Assembly (NCBI RefSeq): GCF_016918765.2
Contig: NZ_CP092104.1
Span: forward strand, 1,364,001 to 1,428,000
Direction: 5' to 3'
DNA from: Flagellatimonas centrodinii
GTDB taxonomy: Bacteria > Pseudomonadota > Gammaproteobacteria > Nevskiales > Nevskiaceae
DNA length: 64,000 nucleotides
In this document: one piece after another, positions 21,616-40,256 of the stretch
Layout of the letters: each line of letters starts with the position of its first letter
Position numbering within the stretch: the stretch's first letter is position 1
Made by a program: the position numbers and the translations under genes
Notes under the pieces: model-generated
Database searches by the model: none
Seen by the model: only the letters and a program-made list of their open reading frames with translations
Told to the model about the DNA's origin: nothing

Positions 21616-21638
21616 ACGGGCACCGCCGTTCGCAGTTG

Positions 21639-21665
21639 TTGACACTGTTACGTTAACACTGTCAA
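21639..21665. promoter_or_regulatory. 27-bp dyad, probable TetR operator/promoter
   Basis: Half-sites TTGACACTGTTA and TAACACTGTCAA flank a 3-bp centre (CGT); 22 of 27 positions are symmetric. The left arm contains a perfect -35-like TTGACA. The dyad ends 8 bp before the tetR ATG, so bound regulator would block its own operon. Confidence 0.75.
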
Positions 21666-21673
21666 CATTCCGC

Positions 21674-22345
21674 ATGGCCCGTAAAAAAACCACCGAAACC
21701 GTCCGCGACCGCAAGCGCGAGGAGATTGTGGATGCCGCGATGGCGGTGTTTGAGAACGGCGGCGGCATGGACGCGCTGAGCTTCCGCAAGCTCGCGGCGC
21801 AGTTGTCGCTGAGCTACTCGGCGCCCTATCGCTACTTCGCCAACAAGGAAGCGCTGATCAATGCGATGCGGGCCCGGGCCTACCGCTGGATCGAGGGGGT
21901 CATGCTCGACGCCATTGCCGATATTGACGATCCGGAGGCGCAGCTGGAGGCGCTGGCGGCGGCCTACATCGATGCGGGCATCGCCCAGCCCGATCGCTAC
22001 GCCCTGATGTTCTTCCGGGTGGACGACCCCAGTGCGACCCATCGATCGCTGGAACTGCGGGCCGCCAAGCACGATGCACTCGACGTCTGTACCCGGGTGA
22101 TTACGGCGGGGCAGGCGGCTGGCAGCATGCCCACCCACCTCGACCCGCTGACGGCGAGCCACCTGTTCTGGACGGCCGCGCACGGACTGGTCTCGCTGCA
22201 GGTGGCGGGACAGTTCGAGATGGGCCGCAATACCGCAGCGCTGGTGCCTGCGCTGATCGGTGTGCTGCGCGCCGGTGTGGATCACTTCCGCGCCGGCGAG
22301 CCGCAGTCTGCCGCAACCCCCGAGGAGGTGCGCCACCATGGCTGA
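21674..22345 (+). CDS. TetR-family transcriptional regulator
   Basis: Protein of 223 aa beginning MARKKTTETVRDRKREEIVD. The N-terminal HTH is LSFRKLAAQLSLSYSAPYRY followed by FANKEALI (about residues 35-62), and the C-terminal ligand domain has the WTAAHGLVSL segment of the WHG subgroup. The 3' end overlaps the following metal-dependent hydrolase gene by 8 bp, so it is the first gene of an operon it probably represses. The inducer is unknown. Confidence 0.92.
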   Translation: MARKKTTETVRDRKREEIVDAAMAVFENGGGMDALSFRKLAAQLSLSYSAPYRYFANKEALINAMRARAYRWIEGVMLDAIADIDDPEAQLEALAAAYIDAGIAQPDRYALMFFRVDDPSATHRSLELRAAKHDALDVCTRVITAGQAAGSMPTHLDPLTASHLFWTAAHGLVSLQVAGQFEMGRNTAALVPALIGVLRAGVDHFRAGEPQSAATPEEVRHHG

Positions 22346-23252
22346 CACGACCCACGAGCCCCTGCCGATCCCGCGGCAGATCGCATTCAGCTTTCCTGAC
22401 GACCTGGACCCGTGCTGGAAGCCGGGCGATCCCGAGTTCTGTGCCATGGTCAACGGCGCCTCGCTGACCATGCCGTATCTGGAGCCGTTCCTGATCCGCA
22501 CCGTGCGGGAGGCGATGCCGCGGATCGCCGACCCGCGAGTGCACGAAGCCGCGCGTGCATTCAATACCCAGGAACAGTTTCACTATCAGGCGCATCGTCG
22601 TTTCAACGAGCTGATCAAGGCACGCGGCTATCCCGAACTGGCGGCGCTGGAAGCGCGCATGCAGGCCGCCTATCAGCGGCTGGGGACCAAATCGCTGCGC
22701 ACGCGTCTGGCCTACACGGCGGGCTTCGAGGCGATGACCATGGGCGTGACCCGCTGGCTCATCAACCACCGGGTCCGGCTGTTCGGCGGCAGCGACAGCC
22801 GTGTCGCCTCCTTCATTCTTTGGCACTTTGTCGAAGAGGCCGAGCACAAATGCGTGGCGTACGACGTCTACCAGGATGTCTGCGGCGGCGGTGCCGGCGC
22901 GTATCTGGCGCGGGCGGTCGGTGTGTTCCACGGCGCACTCGATGTCATGTTTGCCTCCATGCGGGGCTACAAGCTCATCCTCCGGAAGGATGGACGGTGG
23001 TATCAGTGGCGGTCGCGGCTGCGCCTGTTGCGTCACCTCGCCAGTTTTGTCCGCACGGTGGCGCCGTACCTGCTGCGGGCAGCGATGCCGGGCCATACCC
23101 CGCGACGCGAACAGGAGCCGCAGTGGGTGTACGACTGGATTGCGGCGTATCAGCACGCACCACCGGGGTACGTGCCGATGGTCGATACCCACAGCAAGAC
23201 GCTTCCGGTGCCGTTTGATGCGGTGCCACCGCTGTCCGGGGCGCGTCCGTGA
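22338..23252 (+). CDS. PF10118-type predicted metal-dependent hydrolase, possible ferritin-like di-iron protein
   Basis: Protein of 304 aa. Two ExxH motifs, EQFH (in NTQEQFHYQAHRRFNE) and EAEH (in WHFVEEAEHKCVAYDVY), lie on predicted helices and resemble the carboxylate/histidine ligands of di-iron proteins. I recognise the overall pattern as the PF10118 family, annotated as predicted metal-dependent hydrolase; its biochemical activity is not settled. GTG overlap with the next gene. The company of two StyC-like proteins and a membrane di-iron hydroxylase hints at an oxygenase role, which is inference. Confidence 0.75.
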   Translation: MADTTHEPLPIPRQIAFSFPDDLDPCWKPGDPEFCAMVNGASLTMPYLEPFLIRTVREAMPRIADPRVHEAARAFNTQEQFHYQAHRRFNELIKARGYPELAALEARMQAAYQRLGTKSLRTRLAYTAGFEAMTMGVTRWLINHRVRLFGGSDSRVASFILWHFVEEAEHKCVAYDVYQDVCGGGAGAYLARAVGVFHGALDVMFASMRGYKLILRKDGRWYQWRSRLRLLRHLASFVRTVAPYLLRAAMPGHTPRREQEPQWVYDWIAAYQHAPPGYVPMVDTHSKTLPVPFDAVPPLSGARP

Positions 23253-23734
23253 CGCCGGCAGCGGCGCTCTCGCCGATGCGGCGCCTGTTGATCGGCCATG
23301 GCGCCTTGATGATCCTGGTCGGCGGCGTCATCGGCTTCGGCTTCCTGTTCTTTCTCATGGGCGAAATCAGCCTCTGGCCCTTCCCCGGTCGCGTCGACTA
23401 CCAGTTGCCCGGCAGCTACGACGCGTGGCGCATGGCGCACATGGAAGCCATCGTCAACGGTGCCATCCTCTGGATTCTCGCGGCCGTGCTGCAGCACCTG
23501 CCGTTCGGCGTGGTCGGTGTCCGGCGTGCAGTGCATGGCATGTTGGTTGTGGCCTGGTCGATTGTCGTCGCCTCCGTCTTCGATCCGTTGTTTCCGGACA
23601 GCCGCGGGCTGGCGGCCAGCGATTCGCTGACCAACAACATCGCCTTCGGCCTGTTCTACATCGGCGTTGTCGGCGTGATGATTCTGATGGGTGTGATTGC
23701 CTACAAGGCATTGTTCACGCGGGCGCCGGAGTAG
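23249..23734 (+). CDS. Styrene-oxide-isomerase-like (StyC-like) membrane protein 1
   Basis: Protein of 161 aa with four hydrophobic segments (about residues 13-37, 65-83, 96-113, 130-155). GTG start overlapping the previous stop. It has GSYDAWRMAHMEAIVNG, where H64 and N70 keep the His-x5-Asn spacing of the heme-b-binding His and catalytic Asn of styrene oxide isomerase (H58/N64 by recall), plus the later PDSRGLAASDSLTNN motif. The Asp and Tyr recalled as catalytic in StyC (Asp95, Tyr103) are not conserved. Probable integral membrane protein with heme; substrate unknown. A longer paralogue follows 4 bp downstream. Confidence 0.65.
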   Translation: MTPAAALSPMRRLLIGHGALMILVGGVIGFGFLFFLMGEISLWPFPGRVDYQLPGSYDAWRMAHMEAIVNGAILWILAAVLQHLPFGVVGVRRAVHGMLVVAWSIVVASVFDPLFPDSRGLAASDSLTNNIAFGLFYIGVVGVMILMGVIAYKALFTRAPE

Positions 23735-23738
23735 CGCC

Positions 23739-24254
23739 ATGACCGACCCTGACAGGCTGCTCGCCACCGCCCGGCAGGGGCGGCTACGATTGATTCAGCA
23801 AGGCGCCGTCATTGCCGTCATTGGCTTGCTCTCCGGCTTCGGCCTGGTGTTTTCCATCCTTGATGCCCTGCATGTCTGGCCCGTGACGCTGCCCTACGCC
23901 GGTGACATTCCCGGCAGCGAACACGGCTGGCGCGTCGCCCATGTGGCGGGGGTGATGAACGGCATGCTGATGATCATCGCCGGCCTCGCGCTGGTGCCGG
24001 TCCTCCCCGGCATCCGCGCCCAACGCTGGGTGGTGTGGGGCATGGTCTACACCGGCTGGGGCAATACGGTGTTCTTTCATTGCGCCAACCTGTCGGCCAA
24101 CCGCGGCCTGTCCGCGGGCACCACCCAACTGGGCGACGCCGATGCCCTTGGCGCCATCGGCTACCTGATCGGGGCCAGCACCATTCCGTTGACGATCGTC
24201 GCGCTCGGTCTGCTGGCGTGCGCGGCCACGGTGCGGCTACGAGCCCGGAACTGA
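23739..24254 (+). CDS. Styrene-oxide-isomerase-like (StyC-like) membrane protein 2
   Basis: Protein of 171 aa with four membrane helices. It is closer to StyC than its neighbour: GSEHGWRVAHVAGVMNG (H68, N74) and ANLSANRGLSAGTTQLGDAD, matching the NRGLSFGxNQLGxxD motif I recall for StyC. The positions corresponding to StyC Asp95 and Tyr103 are T105 and F113, with a histidine at 114. StyC catalyses Meinwald rearrangement of an epoxide to an aldehyde using ferric heme b. This protein may act on another epoxide, or pair with protein 1 in a hetero-oligomer. Both are inference. Confidence 0.7.
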   Translation: MTDPDRLLATARQGRLRLIQQGAVIAVIGLLSGFGLVFSILDALHVWPVTLPYAGDIPGSEHGWRVAHVAGVMNGMLMIIAGLALVPVLPGIRAQRWVVWGMVYTGWGNTVFFHCANLSANRGLSAGTTQLGDADALGAIGYLIGASTIPLTIVALGLLACAATVRLRARN

Positions 24255-24373
24255 TACGACGCGACCGGTTCCGGCGTCAGCGCTATGATCTGCCGGTGAT
24301 CACCGAGCGCCGCCGGATGGCGGCGGCAGAAGAAGGTGTCCGGTGACTGCGCCCCGTGACCGCCGAGCCCGCG

Positions 24374-25216
24374 ATGATGTCCGATTCCCTGTTGCCGAAT
24401 GAGCCCGCGATACGGCTCACCGTGTTTGCCGGCATCTTTGTCGTGATGGCCCTGTGGGAACGGCTGGCGGCACGCCGCCCGCAGGCGGTTCCGCGGCGAC
24501 GGCGCTGGCCCGCCAATCTGGGGATTGTGGTGATCGATACGCTGCTGGTGCGTGTCGCATTTCCGGTCGCAGCGATCGGGGTTGCGCAACTGGCGGAGGC
24601 CGGTGGCTGGGGGCTGTTGCCGGCGCTGGGGCTGCCGTCGTGGGCGATGATGGTGTTGGCGGTGGTGGCGCTGGATCTGGTCATCTACTTCCAGCACGTG
24701 CTGTTCCATGCGGTGCCGACGCTGTGGCGGCTGCATCGCATGCACCACGCCGACCTCGAGTTCGATGTCACGACCGGGGCCCGGTTCCATCCATTCGAAA
24801 TTCTGCTGTCGATGCTGATCAAGCTCGGCGCTGTCGCGGCCCTGGGCGCACCGGTGGTCGCTGTGCTGGTTTTCGAGGTTGTCCTGAATGCCACCTCGAT
24901 GTTCAATCACGGCAATGTGCGGTTGCCGCGATCGATCGATCGCGTGCTGCGCTGGGTCGTGGTGACGCCGGACATGCACCGCGTGCACCACTCGGTACTG
25001 CCCGCCGAGACCAACAGCAACTTCGGCTTCAATCTGCCGTGGTGGGATCGCCTGTTCGGCACCTACCGGGCCCAGCCACAGGCCGGCCATGCCGGCATGA
25101 CCATCGGCATCGAGCAGTTCCGGGATCCGGCCGAACTGCGCCTCGACCGGATGTTGCTGCAACCGTTTCGGCGCGCGAGTGCCGCGGCCGCTCGACCACC
25201 AGCGGACCGTCGCTGA
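24374..25216 (+). CDS. Sterol desaturase/fatty acid hydroxylase superfamily membrane protein
   Basis: Protein of 280 aa from the ATG at 24374 (ATG 24377 and GTG 24356 also possible). Membrane helices near residues 15-35, 50-72, 80-115 and 150-175. Histidine boxes of the membrane di-iron family are visible: HVLFH, HRMHH, FNHGN and HRVHH, ending with the NFGFNLPWWDRLFGTY block. It should hydroxylate or desaturate a lipid or hydrocarbon at the membrane with O2. It is separated from the StyC-like genes by 119 bp and may be transcribed with them. Confidence 0.85.
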   Translation: MMSDSLLPNEPAIRLTVFAGIFVVMALWERLAARRPQAVPRRRRWPANLGIVVIDTLLVRVAFPVAAIGVAQLAEAGGWGLLPALGLPSWAMMVLAVVALDLVIYFQHVLFHAVPTLWRLHRMHHADLEFDVTTGARFHPFEILLSMLIKLGAVAALGAPVVAVLVFEVVLNATSMFNHGNVRLPRSIDRVLRWVVVTPDMHRVHHSVLPAETNSNFGFNLPWWDRLFGTYRAQPQAGHAGMTIGIEQFRDPAELRLDRMLLQPFRRASAAAARPPADRR

Positions 25217-25234: not shown

Positions 25235-27391
25235 TCAGCGCCGGCGCCAGGTATGGAACCGCGCCACCAGGCGGAGCAGCGCTTCGGGCTTGTGGGCCTG
25301 CTTCCACGCCCCGGCGGCATATTTGTTGGCCTCGGCCAGCGTCGGGTAGATGTGGATGGTGCCGAGCAGTTTGTTGAGCCCGAGGCCGTGGCGCATCGCC
25401 AGCACATATTCGGCAATCAGGTCGCCGGCATGTTCGCCGACGATGGTGACACCGAGAATGCGGTCCTTGCCGGGCACCGTCAGTACCTTGATCATGCCGT
25501 GGGCTTCGCCGTCGGCGATCGCCCGGTCGAGCTCGGCGAGGTCGAAGGTGGTGACTTCATAGGCGATGCCCTGCGCCCGGGCATCGGTTTCGTTGAGCCC
25601 GACACGCGCAACCTCCGGCTCGGTGAAGGTGGCCCAGGGAATCACCGAGTAGTCGACCTTGAACTTGCCGCCGCGCAGCGCCAATAGCGGTTCGAACAGG
25701 CCGTTGACCGCCGCATACCAGGCCATGTGCGCCGCGGTGTGGGTGAACTGGTAGGGGCCGGCGACATCGCCGACGGCGTAGATGTTGGGGAAGCGGGTCT
25801 GCAGGAAATCATTGACCTCAAGCCGGCCGGTGGTCTTGATCCCCAGCGTGTCGAGGCCGTAGCCGGTGAGCCGGGCGGCGCGGCCGACGGCGACGATGAT
25901 CTGGTCGAAGGCGATGCGTACGGGCTGGCCGTCCTGGTCACAGAGCAGCACCTTTTCGCCATTGTCGACGACCACGACGGTGGCCGTGGTGCCGACGCGG
26001 ACGTCGATGCCCTCGGCGACAAAGCGGCGTCGCACCGCCTCCGACACCTCCGGGTCCTCGCGCTGCAGCAGGCGCGGCTGCATCTCGACCTGGGTGACAG
26101 TCGAACCGAGGCGGGCGAATGCCTGCGCCAGCTCCGAGCCGATTGGTCCGCCGCCCAGCACCACCAGCCGTTGCGGCCGTTCACGCAGCTGCCAGAGGGT
26201 GTCCGAGGTCAGATAGCCGGCCTCGGCAAGGCCGGGGATCGGCGGCACGAAGGGTTCGGCCCCGGCGGCGATGACGATGGTGCGCGCGGTCAGCCGTTGA
26301 CGGCTGCCGTCATGGAGGGCGATCTCGACGGTCCAGGGGTCGATCAGTCGTCCGGTCCCTTCGAGCACCTCCACCCCCAGCCCGGTGTAGCGCTCGACCG
26401 AGTCGTGCGGCTCGATGGCGCGGACCACGGCCTGTACCCGGTCCATCACCTTGGCGAAGTCGGGCGTGCCCGATACGGCGTCGAATCCGAACTCGTCGGC
26501 GCGGCGCAGGTGGCTGGCGAACTTGGCGGACCGGATCAGCGCCTTCGACGGTACGCAACCGGTGTTCAGGCAGTCGCCGCCCATCCGGTGCTTCTCGATC
26601 AGCGTGACCTTGGCTTTCACCGCTGCGCCGATGTAGGCGCTGACCAGACCACCACTACCGCCGCCGATGACGATCAGGTTGCGGTCGAACCGCGCCGGGC
26701 GGCGGTAGGGGGCATAGACGCGTCGCGCTTTGACGCCATCGACCAGCTTGCGCGTGATCAGCGGAAACACGCCGAGCAGCACGAAGGCGCCGATCAGGCC
26801 CGGCGACAGGATGCCGCCGAGTGAGGTCAACTGTGCCAGCTGGGTGCCGGCATTCACGTACACCAACGTGCCGGCGAGCATGCCGAGCTGACTGACCCAG
26901 AAGAAGGTCCAGACCCGCATCTGCGTCAACCCCAGCAGCAGGTTGATCAGGAAGAATGGAAACACCGGGACCAGCCGCAGGGTGAACAGGTAGAACGGAC
27001 CGTCACGGGTGATGCCGGCGTTGATCGCCTTGAGGCGCTCGCCGTAGCGGCGTTCGATGCCGCCCCGGAACAGGTAGCGGGCAAACAGGAAGGCGCCGGT
27101 GGCGCCCAGCGTCGAGGCGAACGAGACCAGCACCGTGCCCCAGATCACCCCGAAGATCGCGCCAGCCGCCAGCGTCAGCACCACCGCGCCCGGAATCGAC
27201 AGCGCCGTGACCAGCACATAAACCCCGAAGAACGCCGCGGTGAGCAGTAGCGGCTGTGCATCGCGATAGTCGATCAACAGGCTGCGACGATCCTGCAGCG
27301 CCTCCAGCGACAGGAAGCGGCCCAGATCAAAGGCGAAGAAAGCGGCGATGGCGCCGACGATCAACGTCAGCAGCAGAAGGCGTTTGATCAT
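25235..27391 (-). CDS. TVP38/DedA-like membrane domain fused to an FAD pyridine-nucleotide disulfide reductase
   Basis: Protein of 718 aa from the ATG at 27391. Residues 1-230 are a VTT/TVP38 membrane domain (several helices, with LSIPGAVVLTLAAGAIFG and the FTLRLVPVFPFFLINLLLG motif). Residues 235-718 are a mercuric-reductase/dihydrolipoamide-dehydrogenase-like enzyme: FAD motif IGGGSGG, redox-active GGDCLNTGCVPSK, NAD motif VLGGGPIGSELA, and a C-terminal HIYPTLAEAN dimer interface containing the catalytic His. It lies downstream of arsS in the same orientation. Function is unproven; a membrane-anchored disulfide or arsenic-thiol reductase is one possibility. Confidence 0.88.
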   Translation of the reverse strand: MIKRLLLLTLIVGAIAAFFAFDLGRFLSLEALQDRRSLLIDYRDAQPLLLTAAFFGVYVLVTALSIPGAVVLTLAAGAIFGVIWGTVLVSFASTLGATGAFLFARYLFRGGIERRYGERLKAINAGITRDGPFYLFTLRLVPVFPFFLINLLLGLTQMRVWTFFWVSQLGMLAGTLVYVNAGTQLAQLTSLGGILSPGLIGAFVLLGVFPLITRKLVDGVKARRVYAPYRRPARFDRNLIVIGGGSGGLVSAYIGAAVKAKVTLIEKHRMGGDCLNTGCVPSKALIRSAKFASHLRRADEFGFDAVSGTPDFAKVMDRVQAVVRAIEPHDSVERYTGLGVEVLEGTGRLIDPWTVEIALHDGSRQRLTARTIVIAAGAEPFVPPIPGLAEAGYLTSDTLWQLRERPQRLVVLGGGPIGSELAQAFARLGSTVTQVEMQPRLLQREDPEVSEAVRRRFVAEGIDVRVGTTATVVVVDNGEKVLLCDQDGQPVRIAFDQIIVAVGRAARLTGYGLDTLGIKTTGRLEVNDFLQTRFPNIYAVGDVAGPYQFTHTAAHMAWYAAVNGLFEPLLALRGGKFKVDYSVIPWATFTEPEVARVGLNETDARAQGIAYEVTTFDLAELDRAIADGEAHGMIKVLTVPGKDRILGVTIVGEHAGDLIAEYVLAMRHGLGLNKLLGTIHIYPTLAEANKYAAGAWKQAHKPEALLRLVARFHTWRRR

Positions 27392-27466
27392 GAGGGTGTC
27401 GGCTCGCTCAGGGGCCGGCACGGGCGCGCGCGGCGGGGGGTCGGAAGGCGCATCTGCGGCCTCCGT

Positions 27467-28498
27467 TCAGGTGGTGGCGCCGCCGCAGGAAGACCCGGCG
27501 CCGGCGGTGCAGCCAAAGCAGTGGTTGCCGACCCGGATGTCGCGGCGCTCCAGCGCCTCCGGATCGAAATCGAAAATCGTCAGGGGTCGCGCGCCGTCGC
27601 GGATCGCCATCCCCAACTGTTGGTTGAAGTCGCAGTCGTAGAGCCTGCCGTCGGCGCCAACGCTGATCATGGTACGGCACATCACCTGGCCGGCTGCGGT
27701 CGGGTTGAAGGCCTGCACCAGCTTGTCCATGTAAGCGGCGTATTGGCCCGACTTTCGCAGGTGCAGCGCGAAGCGATTGATCGGCATGTTGGTGATCGTG
27801 AACAGCTGGTTGAAGACGATGCCGAAACGCGTCTTCAGCTCGCGTTTGTAGTCCGCTTCGAGCACGGCCTGTGCGGCGGGCAGGTAGGGCCCGGCGGGGT
27901 TGTAGACTAGCGTGAGCATCAGCCCCGAATCGTCGACACCATAGCCCAGCGCGTTGAGACGCTGCAGGCCGGCGATGCTCTTGTCGAAAACGCCATTGCC
28001 GCGCTGTTTGTCGGTGAAGAAGGCCTGGTAGTACGGCAGCGAGCAGACCACCTCGACGCGGTGCCGGGCGAAGAATTCCGGCAGATAGGCCTTGCTTTCA
28101 CCGGTCTGTGGGTTGCCGTCATCGCTCACCGTCAGGTTGTGGCGGACGATGATTTTCCGCTGCAGTGCCGCCACCCGTTCGACCAAGGCGTCGAAATCCG
28201 GATGCAGCTCGGGCGCACCGCCGGTCAGGTCCAGGGTGCGGATCTGCGGGTGCGCCGCCAGCAGGGCCACCACCCGCTCGATGCCGTCTCGCGACAGGGC
28301 GTCGGTGCGTGCCGGCGAGGCGTCGACATGGCAGTGGCGGCACGCCTGGTTGCACAGCGTGGTCAGGTTGACCTGCAGCGTGTCGATGGTCAGCGGCGTC
28401 AGTGCGACGTCGTGCGCGCGCAACTGGTCCGAAAAGCGATGGCGCTCGCCGGCGTCGGCCGCGTCGTCGACCACCACCGGGATCCCGGCCGGGGTCAT
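27467..28498 (-). CDS. arsS: Arsenosugar biosynthesis radical SAM protein ArsS
   Basis: Radical SAM enzyme of 343 aa starting MTPAGIPVVVDD. The [4Fe-4S]/SAM motif CNQACRHC has C49, C53 and C56 (Cx3Cx2C) and is followed by LDLTGGAPELHPDFD. The C-terminal MCRTMISVGADGRLYDCDFN and HCFGCTAGAGSSCGG cysteine clusters are typical of the ArsS family (DUF3641 region). Expected to add a deoxyadenosyl-derived group to a dimethylarsenic species. No arsM or arsR is in the window. It is probably cotranscribed with the downstream disulfide reductase fusion. Confidence 0.9.
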   Translation of the reverse strand: MTPAGIPVVVDDAADAGERHRFSDQLRAHDVALTPLTIDTLQVNLTTLCNQACRHCHVDASPARTDALSRDGIERVVALLAAHPQIRTLDLTGGAPELHPDFDALVERVAALQRKIIVRHNLTVSDDGNPQTGESKAYLPEFFARHRVEVVCSLPYYQAFFTDKQRGNGVFDKSIAGLQRLNALGYGVDDSGLMLTLVYNPAGPYLPAAQAVLEADYKRELKTRFGIVFNQLFTITNMPINRFALHLRKSGQYAAYMDKLVQAFNPTAAGQVMCRTMISVGADGRLYDCDFNQQLGMAIRDGARPLTIFDFDPEALERRDIRVGNHCFGCTAGAGSSCGGATT

Positions 28499-36992: not shown

Positions 36993-39900
36993 ATGAACAA
37001 TCCCGCCGCCATCACCAAGCCGCAGCCCTACAAGGCGAACCACAAGGTCCGTCTGGTGACCGCGACCTCGCTGTTCGATGGCCATGACGCCTCGATCAAC
37101 ATCATGCGGCGCATCCTCCAGGCCTCCGGAGCCGAGGTGATTCACCTCGGGCACAACCGCTCGGTGGGCGAGATCGTCAACGCTGCGCTGCAGGAGGATG
37201 CCCAGGCCATCGCCATCACCTCCTACCAGGGGGGGCATGTCGAGTTTCTCCAATACATGGTGGATTTGCTGCGCGAGAACGGCGGCGACAACATCAAGAT
37301 CTACGGCGGCGGTGGCGGGGTCATCGTGCCGTCCGAGATCAAGGCGCTGATGGACTACGGCGTGACCCGGCTGTATTCGCCCGAAGACGGCGCCACATTG
37401 GGTCTGCAGGGCATGATCGACGACGTCGTGCGCGGTGCCGACTATGACATCTGCGCACTGGCGCCCAAGGCCGATCAGGCCGTCGAGGCGCTGAAATCGG
37501 GTGACCGTCGGCAGCTGGCACGGGTGATCAGTGCCATCGAGAACGGTGCGTATTCCGATGCCGAGCGGCAGGCGATCCGCGATGCCGCTGCCGATGTCGC
37601 GGTGCCCAGTCTGGGGATCACCGGCACCGGGGGCGCCGGCAAGTCGTCGTTGACCGACGAACTGGTGTTGCGCCTGCGGCTGGATCAGGCCGACAAGCCG
37701 CGGGTGGCGATCATCTCCATCGACCCCTCGCGCAAGCGCACCGGCGGCGCCCTGCTGGGCGACCGCATCCGCATGAATGCCATCGAGCACGAAAACATCT
37801 ACATGCGTTCGCTGGCCACCCGCGACACCGGCAGCGAACTGTCGGCGGCGCTGCCGGACGTGATGGCAGCCTGCCGCCTGTCGGGCTTCGACCTGATCGT
37901 CGTCGAAACTTCCGGCATCGGTCAGGGCGATGCCGCCATCGTGCCGTTCGTCGATGTCTCGCTGTACGTGATGACGCCGGAATTCGGCGCCGCCAGTCAG
38001 TTGGAGAAGATCGACATGCTCGACTTCGCCGACTTCATCGCCCTCAACAAGTTCGACCGCAAGGGCGCCGAGGATGCGCTGCGCGACGTGCGCAAGCAGT
38101 ACCAGCGCAACCGCGAGCGGTTCATGGAATCCCCCGAGGCGATGCCGGTGTTCGGCACCATGGCCTCACGCTTCAATGACGACGGTGTCACTGCCCTGTA
38201 CCAGGCCATTCTGCCGGCGCTGGTGGCGAAGGGGTTCGATGCCGCGCCGTCGACCCTGGCGACGGTGACGGTGAAGGCCTCGACCATCCGTCGCGCGGTG
38301 GTGCCGCCTGACCGCGTTCGTTACCTCGCCGAGATTGCCGGCGAGGTGCGCGACTATCACCAGACCATCGAACAGCAGTGCCGCGTGGTGCGGGAACGTG
38401 AGGCCTTGGCCATCAGCCGCCGCCTGCTCGGGGATGACCCGGCGGGGGCAAGCCTTGAAGCCCTGGAGCAGACCAAGGACGGCGAACTGCTGCCCGGCCC
38501 GCGGCGCCTGCTCAATGACTGGCGCACGGTGGTCGACCAGTATTCGGGTGATGCCCATGTGGTGAAGATCCGCGACAAGGAAATCCGCACCGTCCTCACC
38601 ACCACCTCGTTGTCGGGCAGCAAGATCCGCAAGGTGTCGCTGCCGCGTTTCGAGGATCCGGGCGAGCTGTTGCGGTTCCTGATGAAGGAGAACCTGCCGG
38701 GGTATTTCCCGTTCACCGCCGGCGTGTTCCCGTTCAAGCGTGAAGGGGAAGACCCCACCCGCATGTTCGCCGGCGAGGGCGATGCCTTCCGTACCAACCG
38801 CCGCTTCAAGCGGGTGTCCGAAGGGATGCCGGCGCACCGTCTGTCCACCGCGTTCGACTCGGTCACGCTATACGGATGGGACCCGGCGCTGCGGCCGGAC
38901 ATCTACGGCAAGATCGGCAACTCCGGGGTGTCGATCTGCACGCTCGATGACATGAAGGTGCTGTACTCCGGGTTCGACCTCTGTGCGCCGACCACCTCGG
39001 TGTCGATGACCATCAATGGCCCGGCGCCGATGATCCTGGCGATGTTCATGAACACCGCCATCGACCAGCAGGTCGAACAGTTCGCCGAGAAGAATGGTCG
39101 CGCCCCGGATGCCGAAGAGCATGCCCAGCTGCGCGCCTACGCGCTGTCGACGGTGCGCGGTACCGTGCAGGCCGACATTCTCAAGGAGGACCAGGGCCAG
39201 AACACCTGCATTTTCAGCACCGAGTTCGCGCTGAAGATGATGGGCGACATCCAGCAGTATTTTGTCGAACACAAGGTGCGCAACTTCTACTCGGTGTCGA
39301 TCTCCGGATACCACATTGCCGAGGCCGGGGCGAACCCGATCAGCCAGCTCGCGTTCACCCTCTCCAACGGCTTCACCTATGTCGAGAGCTATCTGGCGCG
39401 CGGCATGCACATCGACGACTTCGCGCCCAACCTGAGCTTCTTCTTCAGCAACGGCATGGACCCGGAGTACTCGGTGATCGGCCGCGTCGCCCGCCGCATC
39501 TGGGCGGTGGCGATGAAGCACAAGTACGGCGGCAACGAACGCAGCCAGAAACTGAAGTACCACGTCCAGACCTCGGGCCGATCACTGCACGCGCAGGAGA
39601 TGTCGTTCAACGATATCCGCACCACGCTGCAGGCCTTGCTGGCCATCTACGACAACTGCAACAGCCTGCACACCAACGCCTATGACGAGGCGATCACCAC
39701 CCCTACCGAGGAATCGGTGCGGCGTGCCATGGCGATCCAGCTCATCATCAACCGCGAGTTCGGGCTGGCGAAGAACGAGAATCCCCTGCAGGGCAGCTTC
39801 ATCATCGACGAGCTGACCGATCTGGTGGAGGAGGCCGTGCTCAAGGAGTTCGAGGCCATCGCCAACCGTGGCGGCGTGCTGGGCGCCATGGAGACCGGCT

Positions 39901-40256
39901 ACCAGCGTGGCAAGATTCAGGAAGAGTCGATGCACTACGAGCACAAAAAACATGATGGTTCGCTGCCGCTGATCGGCGTCAACACCTTCCGCAACCCGAA
40001 AGGCGATGACGGGGCGTTCGAGATCGAACTGGCGCGCTCCACTGATGACGAGAAGCAGTCCCAGCTCAAGCGTCTGGGCGAGTTCCAGGCCCGCAACGCC
40101 GAGCCGGCGGAGGCCGTCCTCAGCCGCCTGCGCGACACCGTGATGAACGACGGCAACACCTTCGAGGTGTTGATGGACGCGGTGCGGCACTGCTCACTGG
40201 GGCAGATCACCCATACGCTCTATGACGTCGGCGGGCGCTATCGCCGCAACATGTGA
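36993..40256 (+). CDS. icmF: Fused isobutyryl-CoA mutase (IcmF)
   Basis: Protein of 1087 aa, the family's usual length. Domain order: B12-binding (DGHD with axial H31, SYQGGH, GGGGGVI, residues 15-150), G-protein chaperone (P-loop GTGGAGKSS at 210-218, [18 protein letters not shown], to about 500), and mutase TIM barrel (from about 560, with [16 protein letters not shown] and [14 protein letters not shown]). It interconverts isobutyryl-CoA and n-butyryl-CoA using adenosylcobalamin, and GTP use supports cofactor loading and repair. Isovaleryl/pivalyl activity occurs in some homologues. The thiolase gene follows after 34 bp. Confidence 0.96.

Follow-up and report, generated by a model that had tools for sequence, protein, structure and literature searches.

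What do a gene labelled as a metal-dependent hydrolase and two tandem relatives of the styrene oxide isomerase gene styC do together in one operon? The question is raised by a locus of Flagellatimonas centrodinii that lies in the window analysed here (64,000 nucleotides of contig NZ_CP092104.1, positions 1,364,001 to 1,428,000). On the + strand, genes for a TetR-family regulator, a PF10118 protein and two StyC-like proteins (A and B) follow one another in this order. The PF10118 gene shares 8 bp with the TetR gene before it and 4 bp with the A gene after it, and 4 bp separate A from B. This arrangement is that of a single translationally coupled operon. Coordinates, overlaps and homology thus bear out the operon, with its two tandem StyC-like genes, that an original prediction made from the sequence alone had proposed. 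Comparison with the orthologous operon of a relative (G003, locus L039) gives dN of 0.15-0.22 and dS of 0.87-1.08 for all four genes, indicating purifying selection.

With A-type StyC as the only query, 45 loci were returned from species-representative genomes; they are not independent events, since several come from close species and two (L105 and L111) lie on one contig. They occur in Gammaproteobacteria (Solimonas, Nevskia, Sinimarinibacterium, Halioglobus, Shewanella and Zhongshania), Alphaproteobacteria (Zavarzinia, Erythrobacter and Henriciella), Acidimicrobiales, Binatia and one deltaproteobacterium. A PF10118 gene adjoins the A-type gene in 43 of the 45 (the exceptions are L091 and L117), mostly directly upstream on the same strand, and is divergent in L095-L097. 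In 17/45 loci a TetR gene precedes the pair or A, and B follows A in 8/45. Other neighbours common to several loci reflect synteny of close species or are scattered, and no conserved third neighbour (reductase, ferredoxin or aldehyde dehydrogenase) was found among the 45 loci.

PF10118 was also searched for alone in 61 related genomes; it is present in 55 of them, with up to 14 copies per genome, and the scores fall in steps. Among 22 matches of at least 350 bits, a StyC-like gene adjoins 20 or lies no more than about 1 kb from them; of the remaining two, one is cut by a contig end and one (G038:C6) is without a StyC-like gene. The next step (266-321 bits, 13 matches) includes 11 with a StyC-like gene within 5 kb, one at a contig end and one (G006:C4) that lacks such a gene. 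At 200 bits or less, a single match of the 82 listed is linked. Combined, the two high-scoring groups have 33 testable members, of which 31 are StyC-linked, versus 1/82 of the others (Fisher p ~1e-24, computed with 83 instead of 82); positions were compared by eye and exceptions were inspected individually. Nearly all StyC-linked proteins also fall into two groups in a tree of 89 PF10118 proteins, the rows of which were chosen partly by StyC, so that the tree shows grouping and not frequency. Given this near-obligate linkage, we consider it almost certain that the PF10118 and StyC-like proteins are functional partners. The open-licence papers searched contain no previous description of the pairing. 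It is very improbable that the genes are only co-regulated in one catabolic or stress regulon and act on separate substrates, with no shared intermediate. The sporadic distribution (two same-genus genomes have no linked-group PF10118 match) and the TetR regulation would suit such an arrangement, but the order and tight spacing of PF10118 and StyC-like genes are kept across several bacterial classes while TetR and other neighbours vary.

What, then, is the PF10118 protein? The match to PF10118 (Metal_hydrol) scores 183.6 bits against a gathering cut-off of 33.2. Searches of the open-licence literature (also with COG3687, and with PF10118 together with styrene) found no function for the family, and the sequence has no significant match in the PDB. 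A ligand set comprising E49, E79xxH82, E131 and E167xxH170 is invariant wherever aligned across the 89 PF10118 proteins, which include StyC-linked and unlinked members, and the six ligands sit on four successive helices of the model (pLDDT 93.8). The pattern E-ExxH-E-ExxH is the signature of ferritin-like diiron proteins. The di-iron nature first proposed from two ExxH motifs is therefore supported by a fuller, six-residue set. The top Foldseek matches of the model are CmlI, NrdF, acyl-ACP desaturase, R2lox and AurF (best E 0.076), and VIA gives Z ~12.5 to R2, CmlI and AurF, where Z below ~13 can reflect a common helical arrangement; the diiron argument thus rests on the ligand set. The completeness of this set makes the hydrolase label doubtful, and judging from the sequence it is probably a misnomer. 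A precedent for a 'hydrolase' label hiding a monooxygenase is the 'cambialistic monooxygenase', a member of another family (PF04909; PMC10811679).

Other observations concern the wider PF10118 family. Unlinked genes (L128, L130, L139, L140 and L141) often lie beside genes that, by reading, appear to encode monooxygenases resembling flavin-containing monooxygenases (FMO) or Baeyer-Villiger enzymes, together with short-chain dehydrogenase/reductase (SDR) genes, which suggests that the wider family takes part in oxidative lipid, terpene or steroid catabolism. Long open frames hinted at PF10118 fusions, and the four that were examined are separate genes. In one Nevskiales metagenome-assembled genome (STE_114), PF10118 is split into two frames at two loci (L099:7033-7978 and L108:7027-7975), with in-frame stops (TAG in G035:C20, TAA in G035:C21); these broken genes may be pseudogenes, cases of stop readthrough or assembly errors.

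Proteins A and B are distant StyC homologues. Styrene oxide isomerases (SOI) are the sole PDB matches of both (E 2e-8 for A, 1.8e-12 for B), and a profile built from 43 A-type proteins sharpens the match to E 3.8e-18. With the NCBIfam equivalog model for StyC (NF045734), A scores 45.6 bits and B 81.2 bits, both under the cut-off of 150, and so they count as StyC relatives, not as StyC proper. The AlphaFold2 model of A has four helices (pLDDT 92.9) and matches the SOI structure 8pnu in Foldseek (8pnu_A, E 3.1e-7, TM 0.79/0.82) and in VIA (Z 17.2, rmsd 2.6, 149 residues aligned, 29% identity), a predicted structure that agrees with the StyC likeness claimed at the outset. The StyC four-helix membrane fold is accordingly predicted for A by its model and for B by sequence. 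The genome holds five StyC-like genes in total, at four loci, none above the StyC cut-off; PF10118 is no more than 5 kb away at three of the four. The three loci outside the window are L006, L007 and L008 (G000:C1), and the L007 copy has a MerR-type regulator nearby and no PF10118.

Could these proteins retain SOI chemistry? In SOI, ferric heme b is ligated by H58 and sited between subunits; the substitutions N64A and D95A impair activity, and N99A and Y103A abolish it (PMC11374702). Alignment places H64/N70 of A and H68/N74 of B at H58/N64, so that the heme-binding His and the Asn are indeed retained in both proteins, and the Arg112 of SOI, which the original prediction did not mention, is also kept (R119 in A, R122 in B). 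Replacement of Asp95 and Tyr103, likewise foreseen, is confirmed in both: in A, V101, I105 and S109 stand for D95, N99 and Y103, and in B, T and F replace D95 and Y103. Asn99, a point missed earlier, is gone from A but present in B, as N109. Among the 43 A-type proteins H64, E66, N70, W103, R119 and N129 are invariant, S109 is kept in 42 and D112 in 41, and at position 105, 40 proteins have I, F or L and 3 have N; E66 and D112 are specific to A. With its own conserved residue set, the A pocket is different yet conserved, and not decayed. One explanation, which we consider rather unlikely, is that A acts as a Lewis-acid or peroxide-type heme enzyme and carries out a new reaction via E66, S109 and D112, with no epoxide involved, on, for example, a hydroperoxide, an aldehyde or another product of the PF10118 enzyme. 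A pocket conserved in its own way, with the SOI catalytic residues replaced throughout the A type, speaks for this, but other StyC-like pocket types also adjoin PF10118, which favours one shared chemistry.

These types were defined by SOI positions 58/64/95/97/99/103/112. The true StyC type reads H N D W N Y R, and StyA- and StyB-like genes adjoin it in L076 and L077. The A type is H N V/I/T W I/F/L S R and the B type H N T W N F R. A further type, H N A W N Y H, retains both N99 and Y103 and partners the second PF10118 group; a LuxR/MalT regulator is often present. Some of its loci include genes for aldehyde dehydrogenase, acyl-CoA ligase, enoyl-CoA hydratase and SDR proteins, a set that fits an aldehyde undergoing oxidation, activation and degradation. 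This is the strongest clue to the chemistry, yet comes from a subfamily other than that of the window. Another StyC-like type (L008:9313-10772, also in L040, L041, L058, L060 and L061) is directly followed by a gene whose 323-aa product has a SnoaL domain at the N-terminus and a Cys-rich C-terminal part resembling a zinc ribbon, and in several loci this pair has the same TetR operator as the operon described here.

Is A still an isomerase? Diiron oxygenases require an electron source, and A might instead be a membrane heme b protein passing electrons from the membrane to the PF10118 diiron site. In keeping with this, A retains the heme ligand and not the distal residues of SOI, and a conserved ferredoxin or reductase gene was not found near the pair. 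However, most PF10118 proteins have no StyC-like neighbour, so the family needs none for electrons, which weakens the idea; the second linked group partners StyC-like proteins that retain Asn99 and Tyr103, and we know of no electron-transfer role for StyC. We judge such a role unlikely.

How is the operon controlled? A near-perfect palindrome, TGTTGACACTGTTA-CGT-TAACACTGTCAACA, lies 6 bp ahead of the TetR start, and its inverted repeat beats 100/100 shuffles. The motif is also found ahead of TetR in L078, L083, L099, L008, L055 and L058. In the window the operator pattern occurs at 21638-21666 (0 expected), and in the 3.6-Mb genome at two places only, both PF10118/StyC-like loci (reversed control 0); the second site is that of L008, between divergent TetR-PF10118 and StyC-like-SnoaL genes. 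Across the 61 genomes about 20 sites carry the operator; 17 belong to PF10118/StyC-like loci, and the other three lie by TetR genes. Of these three, L151 has a SnoaL gene and an FMO-like monooxygenase nearby, L163 a flavin-monooxygenase fragment recognised by reading, and L155 a fatty-acid desaturase that adjoins a different TetR. This distribution indicates that the module forms a small regulon under a TetR of its own, likely an autoregulator of the operon. The predicted TetR control thus gains an operator.

Might another oxygenase serve the StyC-like proteins? StyA had been reported absent from the locus, and this now extends to the whole genome (G000), where a search found no match while two positive controls (G023 and G006) gave StyA; StyB was not searched for separately. 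StyAB as a hidden oxygenase partner was therefore rejected. The nearby membrane di-iron hydroxylase of the original prediction is a real gene matching PF04116 (FA_hydroxylase), but it starts 102 bp past the end of B and adjoins no other PF10118/StyC locus among those examined. We rejected it as a member of the operon on both grounds and regard it as a bystander outside the conserved module.

We tentatively favour a reading in which the module combines a diiron oxygenase with a heme Lewis acid that converts epoxide to carbonyl, working like StyAB/StyC. The PF10118 ferritin-like diiron oxygenase would activate O2 and oxygenate a hydrophobic unsaturated substrate, most likely to an epoxide. The StyC-family membrane heme protein or proteins would receive this product, with the ferric heme acting as a Lewis acid to yield a carbonyl compound. 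Alkene epoxidation followed by epoxide isomerisation is plausible for such a module. A and/or B may still perform Meinwald-type chemistry, perhaps as mixed A/B trimers, which are conceivable because the SOI heme sits between subunits; since B retains N99, such trimers could restore a pocket in the window operon. In favour of this reading are the linkage seen in 43/45 and 31/33 cases, the diiron ligand set and the nearest solved folds among diiron oxidases, the StyC fold with its heme His, Asn64 and Arg112, the Asn99 of B, the second PF10118 group with its StyC-like partners that retain N99 and Y103 and, in some loci, aldehyde dehydrogenase and acyl-CoA ligase genes, the absence of StyA and the shared operator. 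Several points weigh against it. A is without Asp95, Asn99 and Tyr103, and both Asn99 and Tyr103 are essential in SOI (PMC11374702); their loss is the chief objection to an epoxide/carbonyl mechanism. B is absent from most A loci, no conserved aldehyde-processing gene was found beside the A-type pair, and the PF10118 fold match to diiron oxidases is within the range of a common helical arrangement. It is possible, if doubtful, that the module is a previously undescribed two-metal (diiron plus heme b), membrane-associated oxygenation system in which the StyC-A reaction is other than Meinwald isomerisation, which would also explain what two PF10118 subfamilies, present in several bacterial classes, do. 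That the A-type chemistry is new is a real possibility.

Table 1. Features of the operon and its surroundings, in window coordinates.
Feature	Coordinates	Strand	Basis
Palindromic operator TGTTGACACTGTTA-CGT-TAACACTGTCAACA	21637-21667		Inverted repeat
TetR-family regulator	21674-22345	+	PF00440 and TetR_C_33 (Pfam)
PF10118 protein, labelled 'predicted metal-dependent hydrolase'	22338-23252	+	Pfam, 183.6 bits
StyC-like A	23249-23734	+	PDB, NCBIfam, alignment, model comparison
StyC-like B	23739-24254	+	PDB, NCBIfam, alignment
Membrane FA_hydroxylase (PF04116), neighbour only	24356-25216	+	Pfam

Three further features of the window were recorded. Between an SDR gene and the TetR operator lies a C-terminal fragment of a zinc-type alcohol dehydrogenase (PF13602; 21309-21623, - strand), apparently a truncated remnant. 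A fusion of a VTT domain with a pyridine nucleotide-disulphide oxidoreductase (25235-28498, - strand) adjoins a radical SAM/DUF3641 protein. Farther along (36993-40256, + strand), a 1087-aa protein fuses B12-binding, MeaB-type GTPase and acyl-CoA mutase domains, the same set as in the fused isobutyryl-CoA mutase IcmF.

Pairing with StyC-family heme proteins gives the PF10118 family a first testable role, that of a diiron oxygenase. It also shows that the styrene oxide isomerase family is far larger than the styrene pathway, with a rebuilt catalytic pocket in some subfamilies. SOI is a sought-after biocatalyst, and a second natural oxygenase/isomerase pair, if true, would be useful for converting alkenes to aldehydes and ketones.

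How does the module compare with known systems? As in StyAB plus StyC (SOI; PDB 8pnu and 8pnv), an oxygenase gene adjoins that of a StyC-family membrane heme protein, which has the same fold and retains His58, Asn64 and Arg112. Unlike the flavin enzyme StyAB, the window oxygenase is an unrelated PF10118 diiron protein, and in contrast to StyC, A lacks Asp95, Asn99 and Tyr103, B lacks Asp95 and Tyr103, and both score under the StyC cut-off. The window operon differs from the styrene system also in its TetR with its own operator and in having B in tandem with A. The AurF/CmlI N-oxygenases, R2lox, R2 and acyl-ACP desaturase (diiron or Mn/Fe) share the E-ExxH-E-ExxH arrangement on four helices and are the nearest solved folds of the PF10118 model, but sequence similarity to them is not significant, fold scores are modest and the gene context is different. 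The PaaABCE/PaaG and BoxB pathways resemble the module in that a second enzyme rearranges or opens the epoxide made by a diiron epoxidase; unlike the module they are soluble, act on CoA-bound aromatic substrates, use a dedicated reductase and have no heme isomerase. The locus is thus a variant of the known pairing of an oxygenase with a StyC-family heme protein.

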